From positions 1 through 64,000 of the forward strand of contig JAAQTN010000017.1 in the NCBI GenBank assembly GCA_011742915.1: a stretch of 64,000 bases of DNA, read 5' to 3'. Shown one piece after another: positions 13,515 to 19,573 of the stretch (position 1 is the stretch's first letter; the number at the start of each line of letters is the position of its first letter). The notes below the pieces were generated by a model that saw only the letters and a list, made by a program, of their open reading frames with translations, did not search any database and had not been told where the DNA came from. A program made the translations under genes and the position numbers. The stretch comes from Billgrantia desiderata (GTDB taxonomy: Bacteria; Pseudomonadota; Gammaproteobacteria; Pseudomonadales; Halomonadaceae).

Positions 13515-15506
13515 ATGCTTGAGCAGGCGCTGGTGCAGTTACTGCTGTTGCTTGGTGCAACGGTATTGGTCGTGCTGGTCTTTCAGCGCTTCAGGATCCC
13601 ACCTAGCCTGGGATATTTGCTAGTCGGCGTGATGCTGGGCGCCCACACGGCCGGCCCGGTAATCGACAACGACTACATCGACGTCATCGCCGAGTTCGGC
13701 ATCGTGTTTCTGCTCTTCACCATCGGCCTCAGCTTTTCCCTGCCGCAGATCTATGCGCTGCGCCATACCATTCTTGGATTGGGTACGGCACAGGTGGCGT
13801 TGACTACTCTGGTGGTGGCAATGATCGCATGGTGGCTGGGGTTGCCCGGGCCGGCGGCGTTCGTCGTCGGAGCGGTGTTCGCCCAGTCATCGACCTCCAT
13901 CATCACCAAGCAGTTGCTGGAGCAGGGTGAGAGTCAGGCGCGACATGGGCGGCTCGGCACTACCATGTCGGTCTTCCAGGATATTACTGCCGTTCCTTTC
14001 GTGGTGATCATCCCGGTGTTGGGTGTAGCTGCCATGCATGAGGTGGCAGGGGCGCTAGGGATGGCTCTGGCCAAGGCCTTCCTCGCGTTCGTTATCGTGC
14101 TGCTGTCGGGAAGGTATCTGCTGCGTCCTCTGTTTCACCTGGTAGCCGAACGGCGCTCGGCGGAGCTGTTCACCCTCACGGTGTTGTTCGTCTCTCTGGT
14201 ATCCGCCTGGACCACCAAGACGCTCGGGCTGTCCATGGCGTTCGGCGCCTTTCTTGCCGGCATGGTGCTCGGTGACACGGAGTTCCGCCATCAGGTCGAG
14301 TCCACCATTCGTCCGTTCCGCGACGTATTACTTGGGCTCTTCTTCGTCAGTATTGGCATGCTGGTCGAGCCCGCGCTTTTGCCCGATATCTGGCTCGAAG
14401 CGCTGCTGGGAGCGGTGGGGCTGCTGGGCATAAAGGTGGTGCTGATCACGCTGATCGTACGTTTCTCGGGGGTCGATCCCCAGACGGCGTTTCGTACCGG
14501 GCTGGTGCTGGCCGTCGGCGGTGAGTTCGGCTTCGCGCTGTTGGCCATTGGCCTGGATGGCAACGTCATCGCCAGTCGGCCGGCGCAGATCGTGCTCAAC
14601 GCCGTGCTGTTCTCGATGATCCTGGCGCCACTGCTGATTCGCTTCAATCAACCTTTGGCACTATGGGCATTCGGCCGCTCACGAGGCCGAGCGAAACCGG
14701 CTGGCGACGTACCGACGCCGTCCGAGCCAACCGAGAGCCAGGGCCATGTGGTGATTTGCGGCTTTGGCCGTACCGGCCAAACGGTGAGCCGTTTTCTCGA
14801 AAGCGAAGGCTTCGACTACCTGGCGCTGGATATGGACCCGGCCATCGTGAGGGAGGCGCGGCTGGCGGGGCAGCAGGTGTTCTATGGCGACTCATCGGAC
14901 CTGACGGTGCTGGAAAACGTCGGTGTGGAGCGGGCGGCGCTACTGGTCATCAGCCACGACGACAGGCCGGCGGCGCTGGCGACGCTGCGCAATGCCAAGC
15001 GCCTGAATCCCGAGCTGGCGGCAGTGGTTCGTACCCGGGACCAGCAGCATGTGGAGGAGCTGCGTAAGGCAGGTGCCACCGAGGTCATACCCGAGACACT
15101 GGAAGCGAGCATGCTGCTGACTTCCCACGCGCTGCAGTCGCTGGGCGTGCCTCTGTACCGGGTGGCGCTGCGATTGCAGGAGCAGCGCAGCAGCCACTAC
15201 CGCATGCTCAGGGAGCTGTTTCGCGGTACCCTGGACAGTATCAAACCGGAGGCATCGGAGCAGGAGCGATTGCATTCGGTGCTGATGTCCGAGGGCTCAC
15301 CGGCAATTGGCCAGAGCCTTTCGGAGCTGGATACCGAGCGGGACGATGTCTCCGTCACGGCGCTGGTTCGTGATGACAAGCGTGAGCGCTACCCAGGCGC
15401 TGCCACCGAAGTCCAGACCAACGACGTGCTGGTACTGTTGGGCTCGCAGGACAATCTCGAGCGGGTGGAACGGCGCCTCACCGGCTCTGGCCAGCCACCC
15501 GAGTAG
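13515..15506 (+). CDS. CPA2-family cation:proton antiporter with RCK domains (KefB/KefC/YbaL type)
   Basis: A 663-residue inner-membrane antiporter. Residues 1-380 form an Na+/H+ exchanger domain with LGYLLVGVMLGAHTAG and the conserved AVFAQSSTSIITKQL helix. Residues about 410-530 are a TrkA-N (RCK) domain with GHVVICGFGRTGQTVSRFL. A TrkA-C domain follows at about 570-655. It likely exchanges K+ or Na+ for H+ under nucleotide control. ATG 13515 starts directly at the first helix. No KefF/KefG ancillary gene is adjacent. Confidence 0.9.
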   Translation: MLEQALVQLLLLLGATVLVVLVFQRFRIPPSLGYLLVGVMLGAHTAGPVIDNDYIDVIAEFGIVFLLFTIGLSFSLPQIYALRHTILGLGTAQVALTTLVVAMIAWWLGLPGPAAFVVGAVFAQSSTSIITKQLLEQGESQARHGRLGTTMSVFQDITAVPFVVIIPVLGVAAMHEVAGALGMALAKAFLAFVIVLLSGRYLLRPLFHLVAERRSAELFTLTVLFVSLVSAWTTKTLGLSMAFGAFLAGMVLGDTEFRHQVESTIRPFRDVLLGLFFVSIGMLVEPALLPDIWLEALLGAVGLLGIKVVLITLIVRFSGVDPQTAFRTGLVLAVGGEFGFALLAIGLDGNVIASRPAQIVLNAVLFSMILAPLLIRFNQPLALWAFGRSRGRAKPAGDVPTPSEPTESQGHVVICGFGRTGQTVSRFLESEGFDYLALDMDPAIVREARLAGQQVFYGDSSDLTVLENVGVERAALLVISHDDRPAALATLRNAKRLNPELAAVVRTRDQQHVEELRKAGATEVIPETLEASMLLTSHALQSLGVPLYRVALRLQEQRSSHYRMLRELFRGTLDSIKPEASEQERLHSVLMSEGSPAIGQSLSELDTERDDVSVTALVRDDKRERYPGAATEVQTNDVLVLLGSQDNLERVERRLTGSGQPPE

Positions 15507-15509
15507 CGC

Positions 15510-15857
15510 TCAGTCGAACGGGTGCTCCTTGCTCAGGGCCTTGATGTGTTCCGTCAGCCCCAGCGCCTTGGACACCTCGATTTCCAGCGCAATGCCCGTG
15601 TCGAGACTCTCGTCGAGCTTGCCCGCCGTGCTCACGGCGTTCAGTACATCCTCTGAACGGCGGGCTTCCACCAGAATGAGAATCACGCTGCGAGACGCCA
15701 TGAATTCCAGGCCGAAGAAGGTCAACTGTGGCTTGAGCCCCTGGCCTTGGGCGTTGTTGATGATGGTAGCCCCGGTGGCGCCTGCTTCCCGTGCGGCAGT
15801 CAGAACGGTATCGGTCCGGTCCTGATCGACGAAAACCATCAATAACTTGAAATCCAT
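15510..15857 (-). CDS. PII-like small protein
   Basis: A 115-residue protein with the beta-alpha-beta repeat of PII-type trimers (MDFKLLMVFVDQDRTDTVL, later SVILILVEARRSEDVLNAV). The segment equivalent to the T-loop is short and lacks the uridylylated Tyr context of GlnB/GlnK, so it is a divergent PII relative, not GlnB. ATG 15857 has GAGGGAG upstream. It lies 77 bases after the 682-residue gene in the same direction; that gap holds a possible extended -10 (TGCCAGAAT on the minus strand). Ligand unknown. Confidence 0.72.
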   Translation of the reverse strand: MDFKLLMVFVDQDRTDTVLTAAREAGATGATIINNAQGQGLKPQLTFFGLEFMASRSVILILVEARRSEDVLNAVSTAGKLDESLDTGIALEIEVSKALGLTEHIKALSKEHPFD

Positions 15858-15894
15858 TCGAACTCCCTCGAAGCGAGCCTCACATTGAGATACT

Positions 15895-15909
15895 GCCATT
15901 CTGGCAGAG
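15895..15909. promoter_or_regulatory. Possible promoter/hairpin before PII-like gene
   Basis: On the minus strand AGGACA, 17 bases and CAGAAT (with TG extension) form a plausible promoter upstream of 15857. The same place contains a small hairpin ctgcc-agaat-ggcag. If real, the PII-like gene can be expressed separately from the two upstream genes. Confidence 0.35.
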
Positions 15910-15934
15910 CCCCGAGTCATTGTCCTGATGCGGG

Positions 15935-17983
15935 TCAAGTACCTGGGTTCGGGTGTCCGCTATCAGCCTGCAGATCGGCGGCGGGTACCCGGTTCGCCCC
16001 CCAACTGCGATGAACGTAGCCGGTGACCCGGTTGAGCTCCTCCTGGGTGACGTTGGCCAGCTCGCCGCGCTCCAGCGGATCGTAGTGGAAGATGTAGAGC
16101 CGCGAGGCGAACTGCTCGAAGGGCAGGGAGGCTTCGCCGAAGCGCTCGCCGTTGCCTGCCGTACTGACCCTGACGCCATCGCCCCAGTCCTGGCCGCTGT
16201 CGTTGTTGGGATTGAAGAAGTAGACCCGCATTACGTCCGTGGGATCGAGGGAGACGCGCAGGATGGTGATGGCGTGCCAACCGATGAAGCGCGCCGCGCT
16301 ATCGGTCACGGCGATGCCCGCCGGCTGCGGGTGGATGAGGGGCTGATTGCCGTTGTAGTAGGGGTGATAGCTGGCGTAGAAGTGGCGCAAAAAGACGTCC
16401 AGCTCATGCAGCTGGCCGCTGGCCACGTCCACGTTGATACGAAAGCCGCGCCCCGACCACCAACCGTGGAACTCCGGATTGACCCAACGGTGCGGGTCGC
16501 CCTCGCGGCCGATGCAGCGCCGGCCCATCTCGGCATAGATGCGGTCCAGGTGCGGCACCACGATCAGCGACACCGGATCGAGATCCATCGGCAGGCTCTG
16601 TGCCACGCCACCACTGCTCTCCATCGAGGAGATCGGCTGGCCTTCGAAGTGCATCACGATCTCGTCGTCGCGGGCGGCCCAGGCCACCATCTGCAGCAGG
16701 TAGTCGGGATCGTTGTAAGCCCACATGGAGAGTGCCCTGGCCGACTGACAGGTCGGGTTGTTGCCCTGACCTACGCCCAGCGGCAGCCCCAGCATGCACA
16801 ACACCCCCTCGAGCAGGCGGGCACGCGGCGAGACCGCATCGCCGTATGCCAGGTTGAGGCGGGCCTGGGACCACTCGGAGAGCGGTAGTCCCAGTTGACG
16901 CCACATGGCGGGGGCAACAGGGGGTTGATAGAGGATGCCGCGCTCCAGCATCAACGCCAGGCCGTACACCGCCTGGGGTGTGGCCGGGTGCACGGCGCTG
17001 CGGATCAGCGCGTGGGCCAGTTCGCGATAGCACAGCAGGCAGTCGCGGCCGGTGGAGGAGAGCCCCAGGGCCTCGGTGATGAGATGGTCGCCGTGGTCGA
17101 GCAGGTGGCGCAGCAGCACCGGGTGGTAGGGGGACACCAGCCCGGTGTCGTGCATGGCGCGGGCGAAGCCGGTGGCCTCTCCCTGCAAGGCGGCGTTGTC
17201 CATGCTGGCCAGGCGCTGACGATAGACCTCGAGGCCGGGGTCTTCGCGGCAGGCGCGGGTAGGGCCATACAGTGAACTCACCAGGCGGTCGGCGCCCTGG
17301 CCGCTGGTTCCCAGGTCGATGGCGGGGTCGGCCTGGCAGATGGCGATCTGGGTGATCATCTGCTTGACCGCCTCCACTTGGATCGGGCGCTGTTGCAGGA
17401 TCCGCCAGATCTCCTCGATCAGCTGATCGATGATGTGCTCGTAGCCGATACGCTCGGCAAGGTGATGGAACAGGTATCGCGGAATCCGCGCCAGGCGCCC
17501 CTGGGTTTCCCGCTCTGCCTCGCTGGGGGCGCTGAACAGCAGCCAGAGGTTGAGCGCCATCACCTGGGTCAGGTAGTGGTGAGCCTGCTCGGCGGATACC
17601 AGCGGGTGCAGGTAGTCGCCCATGGCCACCGCCAGCAGCCGCAGCTCGCTCAAGGCCTCGATCACCACCGTGTTGGCATCGGGGCTCTTGAGCGAATAGG
17701 TGGTCAGAGAAGGGAGCAGATACTGCGGCGAGTCCCAGTCGGAGCCGAGAAACACGCCGGCCTCTTCCAATGCCCTGGCGCGTACCTCCAGGGCGGCGGC
17801 GCCACCGGGGTGGAGCAGCACGCGGCGTGCCGTATCCAGCACGCGTGGAAGTTTGCCCGGCTTGGCGAAGTCGCGGGCCTCACCGAGCATGGCGGTCGCC
17901 TCGTCGAGGTTGGCCAGCAATCTGGGCAGCTTCTCCTCGTCCGCTGGCGGGGTGCCCTCGTGCATGTGCCGGTTCGTGGTCAC
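15935..17983 (-). CDS. Conserved-looking 682-residue protein of unknown function, possible papain-like fold
   Basis: I do not recognise this protein. It has no signal peptide or membrane helix and is mostly helical in residues 1-390. The C-terminal third holds a run with the order expected of papain-like enzymes: Cys412 at the start of a probable helix (GNNPTCQSARALSMWA), His570 in a beta-like stretch (FIGWHAITILRV), and Asn591/Asn593 (FFNPNNDSGQDWG) 21-23 residues later. That C-H-N order suggests a cysteine peptidase, amidase or transglutaminase-like acyl transferase; this is inference. The GTG at 17983 has AAGGAG upstream. It follows the ATP-grasp gene by 42 bases. Confidence 0.75.
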   Translation of the reverse strand: MTTNRHMHEGTPPADEEKLPRLLANLDEATAMLGEARDFAKPGKLPRVLDTARRVLLHPGGAAALEVRARALEEAGVFLGSDWDSPQYLLPSLTTYSLKSPDANTVVIEALSELRLLAVAMGDYLHPLVSAEQAHHYLTQVMALNLWLLFSAPSEAERETQGRLARIPRYLFHHLAERIGYEHIIDQLIEEIWRILQQRPIQVEAVKQMITQIAICQADPAIDLGTSGQGADRLVSSLYGPTRACREDPGLEVYRQRLASMDNAALQGEATGFARAMHDTGLVSPYHPVLLRHLLDHGDHLITEALGLSSTGRDCLLCYRELAHALIRSAVHPATPQAVYGLALMLERGILYQPPVAPAMWRQLGLPLSEWSQARLNLAYGDAVSPRARLLEGVLCMLGLPLGVGQGNNPTCQSARALSMWAYNDPDYLLQMVAWAARDDEIVMHFEGQPISSMESSGGVAQSLPMDLDPVSLIVVPHLDRIYAEMGRRCIGREGDPHRWVNPEFHGWWSGRGFRINVDVASGQLHELDVFLRHFYASYHPYYNGNQPLIHPQPAGIAVTDSAARFIGWHAITILRVSLDPTDVMRVYFFNPNNDSGQDWGDGVRVSTAGNGERFGEASLPFEQFASRLYIFHYDPLERGELANVTQEELNRVTGYVHRSWGANRVPAADLQADSGHPNPGT

Positions 17984-18025
17984 GCCGACTCCTTGTGATC
18001 GAGCTGTCGTGCCATGACGCCTTGA

Positions 18026-19249
18026 TCAAACGTAGAAATCAAGCTCTTCCTGGTGCTTGAGCAGCTCCCGCAGGCGATTCGGATCATCGCCCTTGAAGTA
18101 GATCAGGCCCCAGTGGGTACCGAAGGCGGTGCGCTTGGTCACGGTTTCTTCCATGGGCGGCGTGAGTTCGTGGGACTCGAAGTAGGGGTCGTCTTCCACC
18201 TCTTCGGGGATCTCCAGGCGACTGACCACGCGACGCCGTGGATAAACGCCGAAGCAGCCGGCATAGCACTTGGCGTCCTCGACTTCGCGGGGGAAGAAGG
18301 CCGCGACCTCCTCGGCGGTGCTCTTGGGGTCGAACACCAGCATGCTGGCCTGGTAGGCATTGAAGCCGTAGACCCGTTCGAGCAGCTCGAACACCTTGAA
18401 GCCCGGGGGACGATAGGCCACCTCGCCGAAGTACATCTCGCCGTCGCTGGTGACGAAGTACTCGGGGTGGATCAGGCCGAAATCGATATCGAAGGCCTTG
18501 ATCAGCTTCTCGATCTGAGCGGTGATCTGGGGTCGGTAGCGTTCCAGCTCCGGCGAGGCGGGCACGAAGACCGAATAGCCCAGGGTGACGTATTCCGAGA
18601 TGTTGAGAAAGGCAATCTTGCCGTCATGGATCCACGCCTCCACGGCGAACTCCCAGCCGTCCAGATGCGATTCCATCAGCACCGGAAACTCTTCGTCGGG
18701 AATGGTATCGACCTCATCAGGGGTGCGGATCACCCGGTGCCCCAGGCAGCCGGCCTTGTCGAAGGCCTTGAGGTGGATGGGGTCGTTGGGGTCGCCGTCC
18801 AGCTTGAGCAGGGTCTGGTTGACGCGCTTGAGAAAGCGGATGACGTCGCCCTTGTCGTGGGCTTCCTCGAAGATACCCACGCGAATGCCGCCAAGCTGGG
18901 CGCGGCGTTTCATCAGCGCCTTGTCGCGCAGCAGCAGCGACTGGCCGTAGAGCCGTGGGTTGTCGAGCAGCACCGAGTTGATGGCGCCGGCCCATTCGAC
19001 GGTTTCCTCGAACAGCGGGATCGCCACGTCGACCCCCATCTCCTTCAGGGTCTCGGCAATTTCCAGCGAGCGGTCGTTGAGTCGTTCGAAGTTCCATGGC
19101 ACATGAGGGATGCCGTGCTTCTGGCAGTACTCTTCGGCCCATTCCGGCGCCACCACGATGTAGCGACGGTCGAAGTTCTCGGCCGCCTCGACGGCATTCA
19201 GACTCCAGCCGAGCAGTGCGATGTAGCCCTTGTCGGGATTCTTGTCCAT
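18026..19249 (-). CDS. ATP-grasp domain protein
   Basis: A 407-residue probable carboxylate-amine or carboxylate-thiol ligase. The N-terminal pre-ATP-grasp part begins GYIALLGWSLNAVEAAENF. The ATP-grasp core includes FPVLMESHLDGWEFAVEAWI and the metal-binding end GEMYFGEVAYRPPGFKVFE, equivalent to the E-x-N/A-x-R-x-G motif. The C-terminal 110 residues are family specific and acidic. ATG 19249 follows GGAGA. It is the first gene of a leftward set with the 682-residue protein and the PII-like protein. Substrate is not predictable from sequence; a peptide or amide-bond-forming role is inferred. Confidence 0.82.
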   Translation of the reverse strand: MDKNPDKGYIALLGWSLNAVEAAENFDRRYIVVAPEWAEEYCQKHGIPHVPWNFERLNDRSLEIAETLKEMGVDVAIPLFEETVEWAGAINSVLLDNPRLYGQSLLLRDKALMKRRAQLGGIRVGIFEEAHDKGDVIRFLKRVNQTLLKLDGDPNDPIHLKAFDKAGCLGHRVIRTPDEVDTIPDEEFPVLMESHLDGWEFAVEAWIHDGKIAFLNISEYVTLGYSVFVPASPELERYRPQITAQIEKLIKAFDIDFGLIHPEYFVTSDGEMYFGEVAYRPPGFKVFELLERVYGFNAYQASMLVFDPKSTAEEVAAFFPREVEDAKCYAGCFGVYPRRRVVSRLEIPEEVEDDPYFESHELTPPMEETVTKRTAFGTHWGLIYFKGDDPNRLRELLKHQEELDFYV

Positions 19250-19370
19250 GGAGCGTCTCCTCAGGTGTGTGTACATCTCCTCATCGTTCCCTTGCTTCTT
19301 TCACCCTAGCCGATTTAGCTCCCCACTCACAGCCCGGACCGCAGCCCATGCCGGCCTCGAGCGACGGTCC

Positions 19371-19463: not shown

Positions 19464-19573
19464 GGTGGCCCCGTCGGTCCTCCCGCAACGCTAAACCGCA
19501 AACCCCGCCAGGCCCGGAAGGGAGCAACGGTAGTGGTGGTCGCGTGTGCCGGGATGTGGCTGTCGGGGCCGCC
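19464..19573 (+). ncRNA. ffs: Signal recognition particle 4.5S RNA
   Basis: About 110 nt with the complete small-type bacterial SRP RNA. The terminal stem pairs ggtggccccg (19464-19473) with cggggccgcc (19564-19573). The 5' side has the conserved tcctcccgcaacgct. The apical domain carries the GGAA tetraloop in ggcccggaagggagc, and the 3' side has gcgtgtgccgggatgtggc. It binds Ffh and scaffolds co-translational targeting of membrane proteins. Ends are set from the stem and may be off by one or two bases. Confidence 0.95.

Follow-up and report, generated by a model that had tools for sequence, protein, structure and literature searches.

Organization of the locus

The window analyzed here, a stretch of 64,000 nucleotides from Billgrantia desiderata (assembly GCA_011742915.1, contig JAAQTN010000017.1, positions 1 to 64,000), contains three consecutive open reading frames (ORFs) on the minus strand. 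They code for an ATP-grasp ligase-like protein of 407 amino acid residues (18026..19249), a protein of 682 residues (15935..17983), hereafter the large protein, and a PII-like protein of 115 residues (15510..15857, with the ATG at 15857 and the stop at 15510). An earlier note, made from the sequence alone, had described these genes as one operon of three parts. The ORF coordinates confirmed their common leftward orientation and the intergenic gaps of 42 and 77 bases; the conserved unit, however, consists of two genes, those of the ATP-grasp protein and of the large protein, and not of three.

The ATP-grasp ORF is readable from position 19276, and the start at 19249 fits the length of 407–408 residues in nearly all listed homologues. 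The closest named relatives of the large protein are from Billgrantia and Halomonas (98–99% identity). Between positions 15350 and 19700 no sigma-70 promoter-like sites were found, and the two terminator-like sites of this region, neither of which lies between genes, were not in excess of those in shuffled sequences (mean 2.1).

Co-occurrence of the two genes

The distribution of the pair was determined in three overlapping genome samples at the level of class, phylum and family. For the ATP-grasp gene the threshold was E ≤ 1e-60 throughout; for the large gene it was E ≤ 1e-3, except in the family sample, where E ≤ 1e-60 was required. Ten of the 276 genomes of the class sample carried the large gene, and these same ten carried the ATP-grasp gene. 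Both genes occurred in the same nine of 299 genomes of the phylum sample and in the same 73 of 121 genomes of the family sample, the other 48 having neither. At the thresholds used, no genome in any sample contained only one of the two genes, and 87 distinct genomes with the pair were obtained across all samples. The earlier note had named a lack of co-occurrence of the homologues as a refutation of its proposal; for the ATP-grasp and the large gene this refutation does not apply, and the PII-like gene shows no association with them (see below). The large gene of genome G671 is split into two pieces and was counted once in the family tally. At one locus each in G566 (L206) and G671 (L207), both members of the pair seem to be damaged, possibly due to sequencing errors.

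Physical linkage is close. Among the best 80 of 571 loci, a selection biased to close relatives, a full ATP-grasp gene lies directly upstream of the large gene on the same strand in 72, with a median gap of about 42 bases. One of the remaining eight loci is interrupted by a contig end, and seven have no full adjacent ATP-grasp gene. Within the family sample the two genes are at most 1 kb apart in 70 of the 73 genomes. In more distant genomes, three of them taken for Marinobacter relatives, they are located on the same or on opposite strands, and in G537 about 55 kb separate them. Presence of the pair differs within the genera g2, g4, g383 and g387, and repeated gain or loss of both genes as a unit is therefore probable.

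The seven exceptional loci contain short remnants of the ATP-grasp gene (four loci), a copy about 7.5 kb away (one locus) or no match (two loci); the large gene is intact in all of them. A second type of ATP-grasp gene, 79–80% identical and of full length, is present elsewhere in each of the seven genomes. Thus every tested genome that has the large gene also has an ATP-grasp partner for it. The type-2 copy was present in all seven genomes lacking the full local gene versus five of 18 with an intact one (Fisher p = 0.0016, kinship ignored). It stands without an adjoining large gene in L195–L198 and L200, and adjoins a second paralogue of the large gene in L194 and L199.

In trees of the two proteins the main groups match: type 1, to which the ATP-grasp protein of the window belongs, goes with the window-type large protein, and type 2 with other paralogue groups. 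Sequences from L130–L132 group together in both trees, and those from L129 and L201, both of G537, are mismatched. Since five of the seven genomes lacking the full adjacent gene combine a window-type large protein with a type-2 ligase alone, ligase types and large-protein types are not strictly tied. Gene numbers are equal in 55 of the 73 family genomes; the large genes outnumber the ATP-grasp genes in 13 and are fewer in five.

The ATP-grasp protein

An assignment of the first gene product to the ATP-grasp ligase-like enzymes is likely. The family ATP-grasp_4 (PF13535) matched the window copy weakly (E 4.4e-5; 23.6 bits, under the cut-off of 27), and was assigned to many of its homologues. 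Identity across 17 other aligned sequences is 76–89%, and the protein is better conserved than its partner, which drops to 41–45% in L129–L132. Residues E263, E276 and R280 are invariant in all 18 rows; their acidic and basic side chains presumably contribute to the metal/ATP site, located in the last strands of the fold.

Compared with solved structures, the profile of the protein retrieved two L-amino acid ligases as well as a chain annotated as phosphoribosylglycinamide synthetase (E about 8e-4). The ligases 4wd3 (RizA) and BL00235 (3vot) were the best sequence matches, with E276 and R280 aligning to a shared E-x-[AG]-x-R stretch; the alignments cover about 120 residues at this E-value. L-amino acid ligases of the RizA and BL00235 type form dipeptides in Bacillus.

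The large protein

The large protein had no match in Pfam or NCBIfam up to E = 1. A whole-protein sequence search of solved structures returned two matches no better than chance (E 0.57 and 1.8), and a profile of the C-terminal domain found none among the sequences of the PDB. It is not rare: in one search, 3098 relatives were recognized among 7996 candidates scored. Two full-length relatives, P0351 and P0360, are from bins labelled Dehalococcoidia and Thermoanaerobaculia, reflecting either a real spread or misbinning.

A papain-like protein had been guessed at from the sequence, and structure prediction spoke for this in part. The full-length model (predicted local distance difference test, pLDDT, 72.5) yielded mainly weak matches to HEAT/armadillo-type proteins with Foldseek and VIA-align; residues 374–633 also matched a few calpain cores. 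Because the helical half dominates these matches, the C-terminal domain was modelled separately, and on its own it gave modest-scoring matches to calpain, papain and phytochelatin synthase, calpain-type peptidases ranking above transferases. The models thus suggest an N-terminal half (residues ~15–400) that is helical and perhaps a solenoid, and a C-terminal domain (~383–645) with a predicted papain fold.

Residue conservation likewise supports the guess. All 240 homologues compared have Gln406, Cys412 and His570, and 239 of them have Asn591. The segment from Gln406 to Cys412 (QGNNPTC) is encoded at 16748..16768, minus strand as for the other codons, and is conserved in the large protein. In the C-domain model the core helix 412–424 begins with Cys412, as expected for the nucleophile of the papain superfamily, and Gln406 upstream of it is a candidate for the oxyanion hole, although residues 403–410 have low confidence in both models. 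The candidate catalytic histidine, His570 (codon 16274..16276), is located in strand 566–579 (184–197 in the C-domain model) and the candidate third residue of the triad, Asn591 (16211..16213), directly after strand 585–590 (203–208). The order Gln-Cys-His-Asn is that of the papain and calpain families (C1 and C2), whose members were the best structural matches, and the spacing of six between Gln and Cys is the same as in papain. The large protein differs from them in the lack of a sequence-profile match in the PDB, in the helical half in front and in the co-occurring ATP-grasp partner.

These residues might belong merely to the fold, the large protein being a structural or regulatory controller of the ligase. 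Catalytically dead papain-fold proteins do exist, one of them with armadillo repeats (PMC10318531). We nevertheless regard a role of this kind as improbable, in view of the nearly complete conservation of Gln, Cys, His and Asn and of the stronger conservation of the C-terminal domain than of the N-terminal half (56% versus 36% identity to the window protein in 120 distant homologues).

Some paralogues and labels deserve mention. In L097 (963–9062) a paralogue of the large gene adjoins a carbohydrate phosphorylase gene and, as read by eye, two glycogen-like genes. In L104 (5219–11868) an orphan paralogue has as neighbours a Memo gene, a gene for a GCS2-like ligase and one whose AstE/AspA-like match is just under the cut-off; the GCS2-like neighbour did not recur in the examined loci, except at the same place in L094. 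The UniRef label "Zorya protein ZorC EH domain-containing" on P0090 and P0261 raised a role in defence, which was rejected: neither PADLOC (up to E = 1) nor the EH-domain family of Pfam (up to E = 10) gave a match for any of the five proteins tested, these two included.

The PII-like gene and other neighbours

The PII-like label itself stood up to the profile search, the 115-residue protein reaching 26.6 bits with P-II (PF00543; cut-off 25). In the earlier note the protein was the third part of the operon, which would make it an allosteric control of the pair. Its gene does follow on the same strand, 77 bases downstream, and similar adjacency was seen in L007, L014, L017 and, by coordinates, G616. 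This adjacency, however, is limited to three of the 80 loci, and presence of the gene is not associated with the pair in the 121 family genomes. A PII-like match at E ≤ 1e-3 occurred in 22 of these genomes, 15 of them with the pair (Fisher p = 0.48), and a close copy—at least 42% identical, a cut of our own choice—in 11, seven of them with the pair (p = 1; kinship ignored in both tests). We therefore consider a three-gene unit very improbable.

The relatives of the PII-like gene point elsewhere. In the window, its 3' end faces a gene for a KefB-type cation/proton antiporter with TrkA domains (13515..15506, plus strand). The same tail-to-tail arrangement of close copies with a KefB-type gene occurs next to the pair in L007 and away from it in L173 and L174; in L014 and L017 the PII-like gene is beside the pair and the locus has no KefB match. 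A further relative in L175 lies beside two DUF1538 genes and a CBS gene assigned by Pfam, and those in L176–L179 and L181 lie beside genes read by eye as membrane-protein and CBS-type genes. The window's own genome has a PII-like stretch with a DUF1538 gene and a CBS gene at another position (G000:C1:203907-204137, L180). A DUF1538 pair of Halomonas zhaodongensis is a Na+(Li+, K+)/H+ antiporter; the available passages of that paper do not mention PII (PMC5484666). As its relatives accompany KefB-type or DUF1538 antiporter genes, the PII-like protein is most likely an antiporter regulator. The KefB-type antiporter is a likelier partner for it than the pair, and the gene likely belongs to a different, antiporter-linked unit.

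Of 108 selected neighbour proteins from 29 distant loci, 105 were scanned; the other three are from L129, L130 and L132, one per locus. No conserved third gene appeared among the first 25 of 127 neighbour families, the commonest of which occurred with at most four members. Hints of an osmotic or metabolic role from genes for mechanosensitive channels (two cases), BCCT transporters (two) and Mqo (three) were rejected as too few. Upstream of the pair in the window and divergent from it lies a gene for the bacterial small signal recognition particle RNA (RF00169, 74 bits; 19472–19568, plus strand).

Proposed function of the pair

The combination of an ATP-grasp ligase with a papain-fold amidase or transferase is of a known general kind. 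Here, judging from the models, the papain-fold family would be an undescribed one, and its close partnership with the ligase would be new. No paper on the pair was found in the open-licence literature, as judged by titles and the beginnings of abstracts. Parallels in concept are glutathionylspermidine synthetase/amidase (GspS) and trypanothione synthetase, in which an ATP-grasp ligase and a cysteine amidase of the papain superfamily make and break one amide. In GspS, both activities are fused in one protein. Its amidase belongs to the CHAP group of the superfamily (PMC10318531). In our case, the genes are separate and the best matches are calpain- or papain-like, not CHAP; with neither a CHAP nor a GSP_synth match in Pfam, membership in the fused GspS type was rejected.

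We tentatively favor a make-and-break function for the pair, at somewhat less than even confidence, in which we infer the chemistry, its direction and a compound shared by both enzymes. An amide or peptide would be formed as the ATP-grasp enzyme couples a carboxylate to an amine at the expense of ATP, and Cys412, His570 and Asn591 of the predicted papain-fold enzyme would then serve to hydrolyse it. The product may be a peptide-like osmolyte, a storage compound or a protein tag, as suggested in the earlier note. The helical half would hold a partner in place, which may be the ligase or a product-carrying protein. The surplus of papain-fold genes in 13 of the 73 family genomes makes it possible that one ligase supplies a common product to several papain-fold enzymes.

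Two readings are close rivals of make-and-break. In the first, the papain-fold protein is a transferase: an acyl or peptidyl group of the ligase product would be passed to a thioester at Cys412 and on to an acceptor, as in phytochelatin synthase or BtrH, and the paralogues would differ in their acceptors. The butirosin pathway offers a similar arrangement, with the ligase upstream of a papain-fold acyltransferase (BtrH); BtrJ is the ATP-grasp enzyme of this pathway. An acyl carrier protein is the acyl donor for BtrH (PMC10318531). In contrast, the large protein lacks a BtrH_N match in Pfam up to E = 1, and no acyl-carrier family was among the 25 commonest neighbour families of the 29 distant loci, a carrier encoded elsewhere not having been sought. 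Given also the higher rank of calpain-type peptidases among the structural matches, we hold a transferase to be unlikely.

The second rival is protein tagging: an amino acid or peptide that the ATP-grasp enzyme has attached to a protein would be removed again by the papain-fold enzyme, whose helical half would hold the target. The layout resembles that of RimK/RimB and RloC/RloA/RloB, where an ATP-grasp gene adjoins a protease gene, and the weak armadillo/HEAT-type matches of the N-terminal half would suit the holding of a target. In Pseudomonas, the peptidase RimB binds and regulates RimK, which attaches glutamates to a ribosomal protein; the Rlo system of this genus includes a transglutaminase-like gene in addition, and RimB and RloA are aspartic peptidases (PMC12239564). 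The ligase here is instead paired with a protein of predicted papain fold in which Cys, His and Asn are conserved, and neither protein of the pair has a RimK- or RimB-type match in Pfam. The closest solved relatives of the ATP-grasp protein are amino-acid ligases, enzymes that act on small molecules. An eraser of protein tags thus seems quite unlikely.

We also put forward, as a doubtful proposal, a novel intracellular amide currency in marine and salt-loving Proteobacteria. One highly conserved ligase would make one peptide-like compound or tag, and multiple paralogous enzymes with a solenoid and a papain fold would cut it or pass it to different partners. The ligase would be replaceable in trans by the second type, the two functions never being separated.

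Significance

Halomonas, Marinobacter and Alcanivorax comprise halophiles and oil degraders. Since the pair is kept or absent together in the three overlapping genome samples and one of its members has no curated family, it points to an unrecognised reaction in such organisms. Its function can be tested directly by way of the conserved Cys, His and Asn residues and the ligase partner, and with the unit corrected to two genes, the likely link of the PII-like protein to cation antiporters becomes a separate lead.

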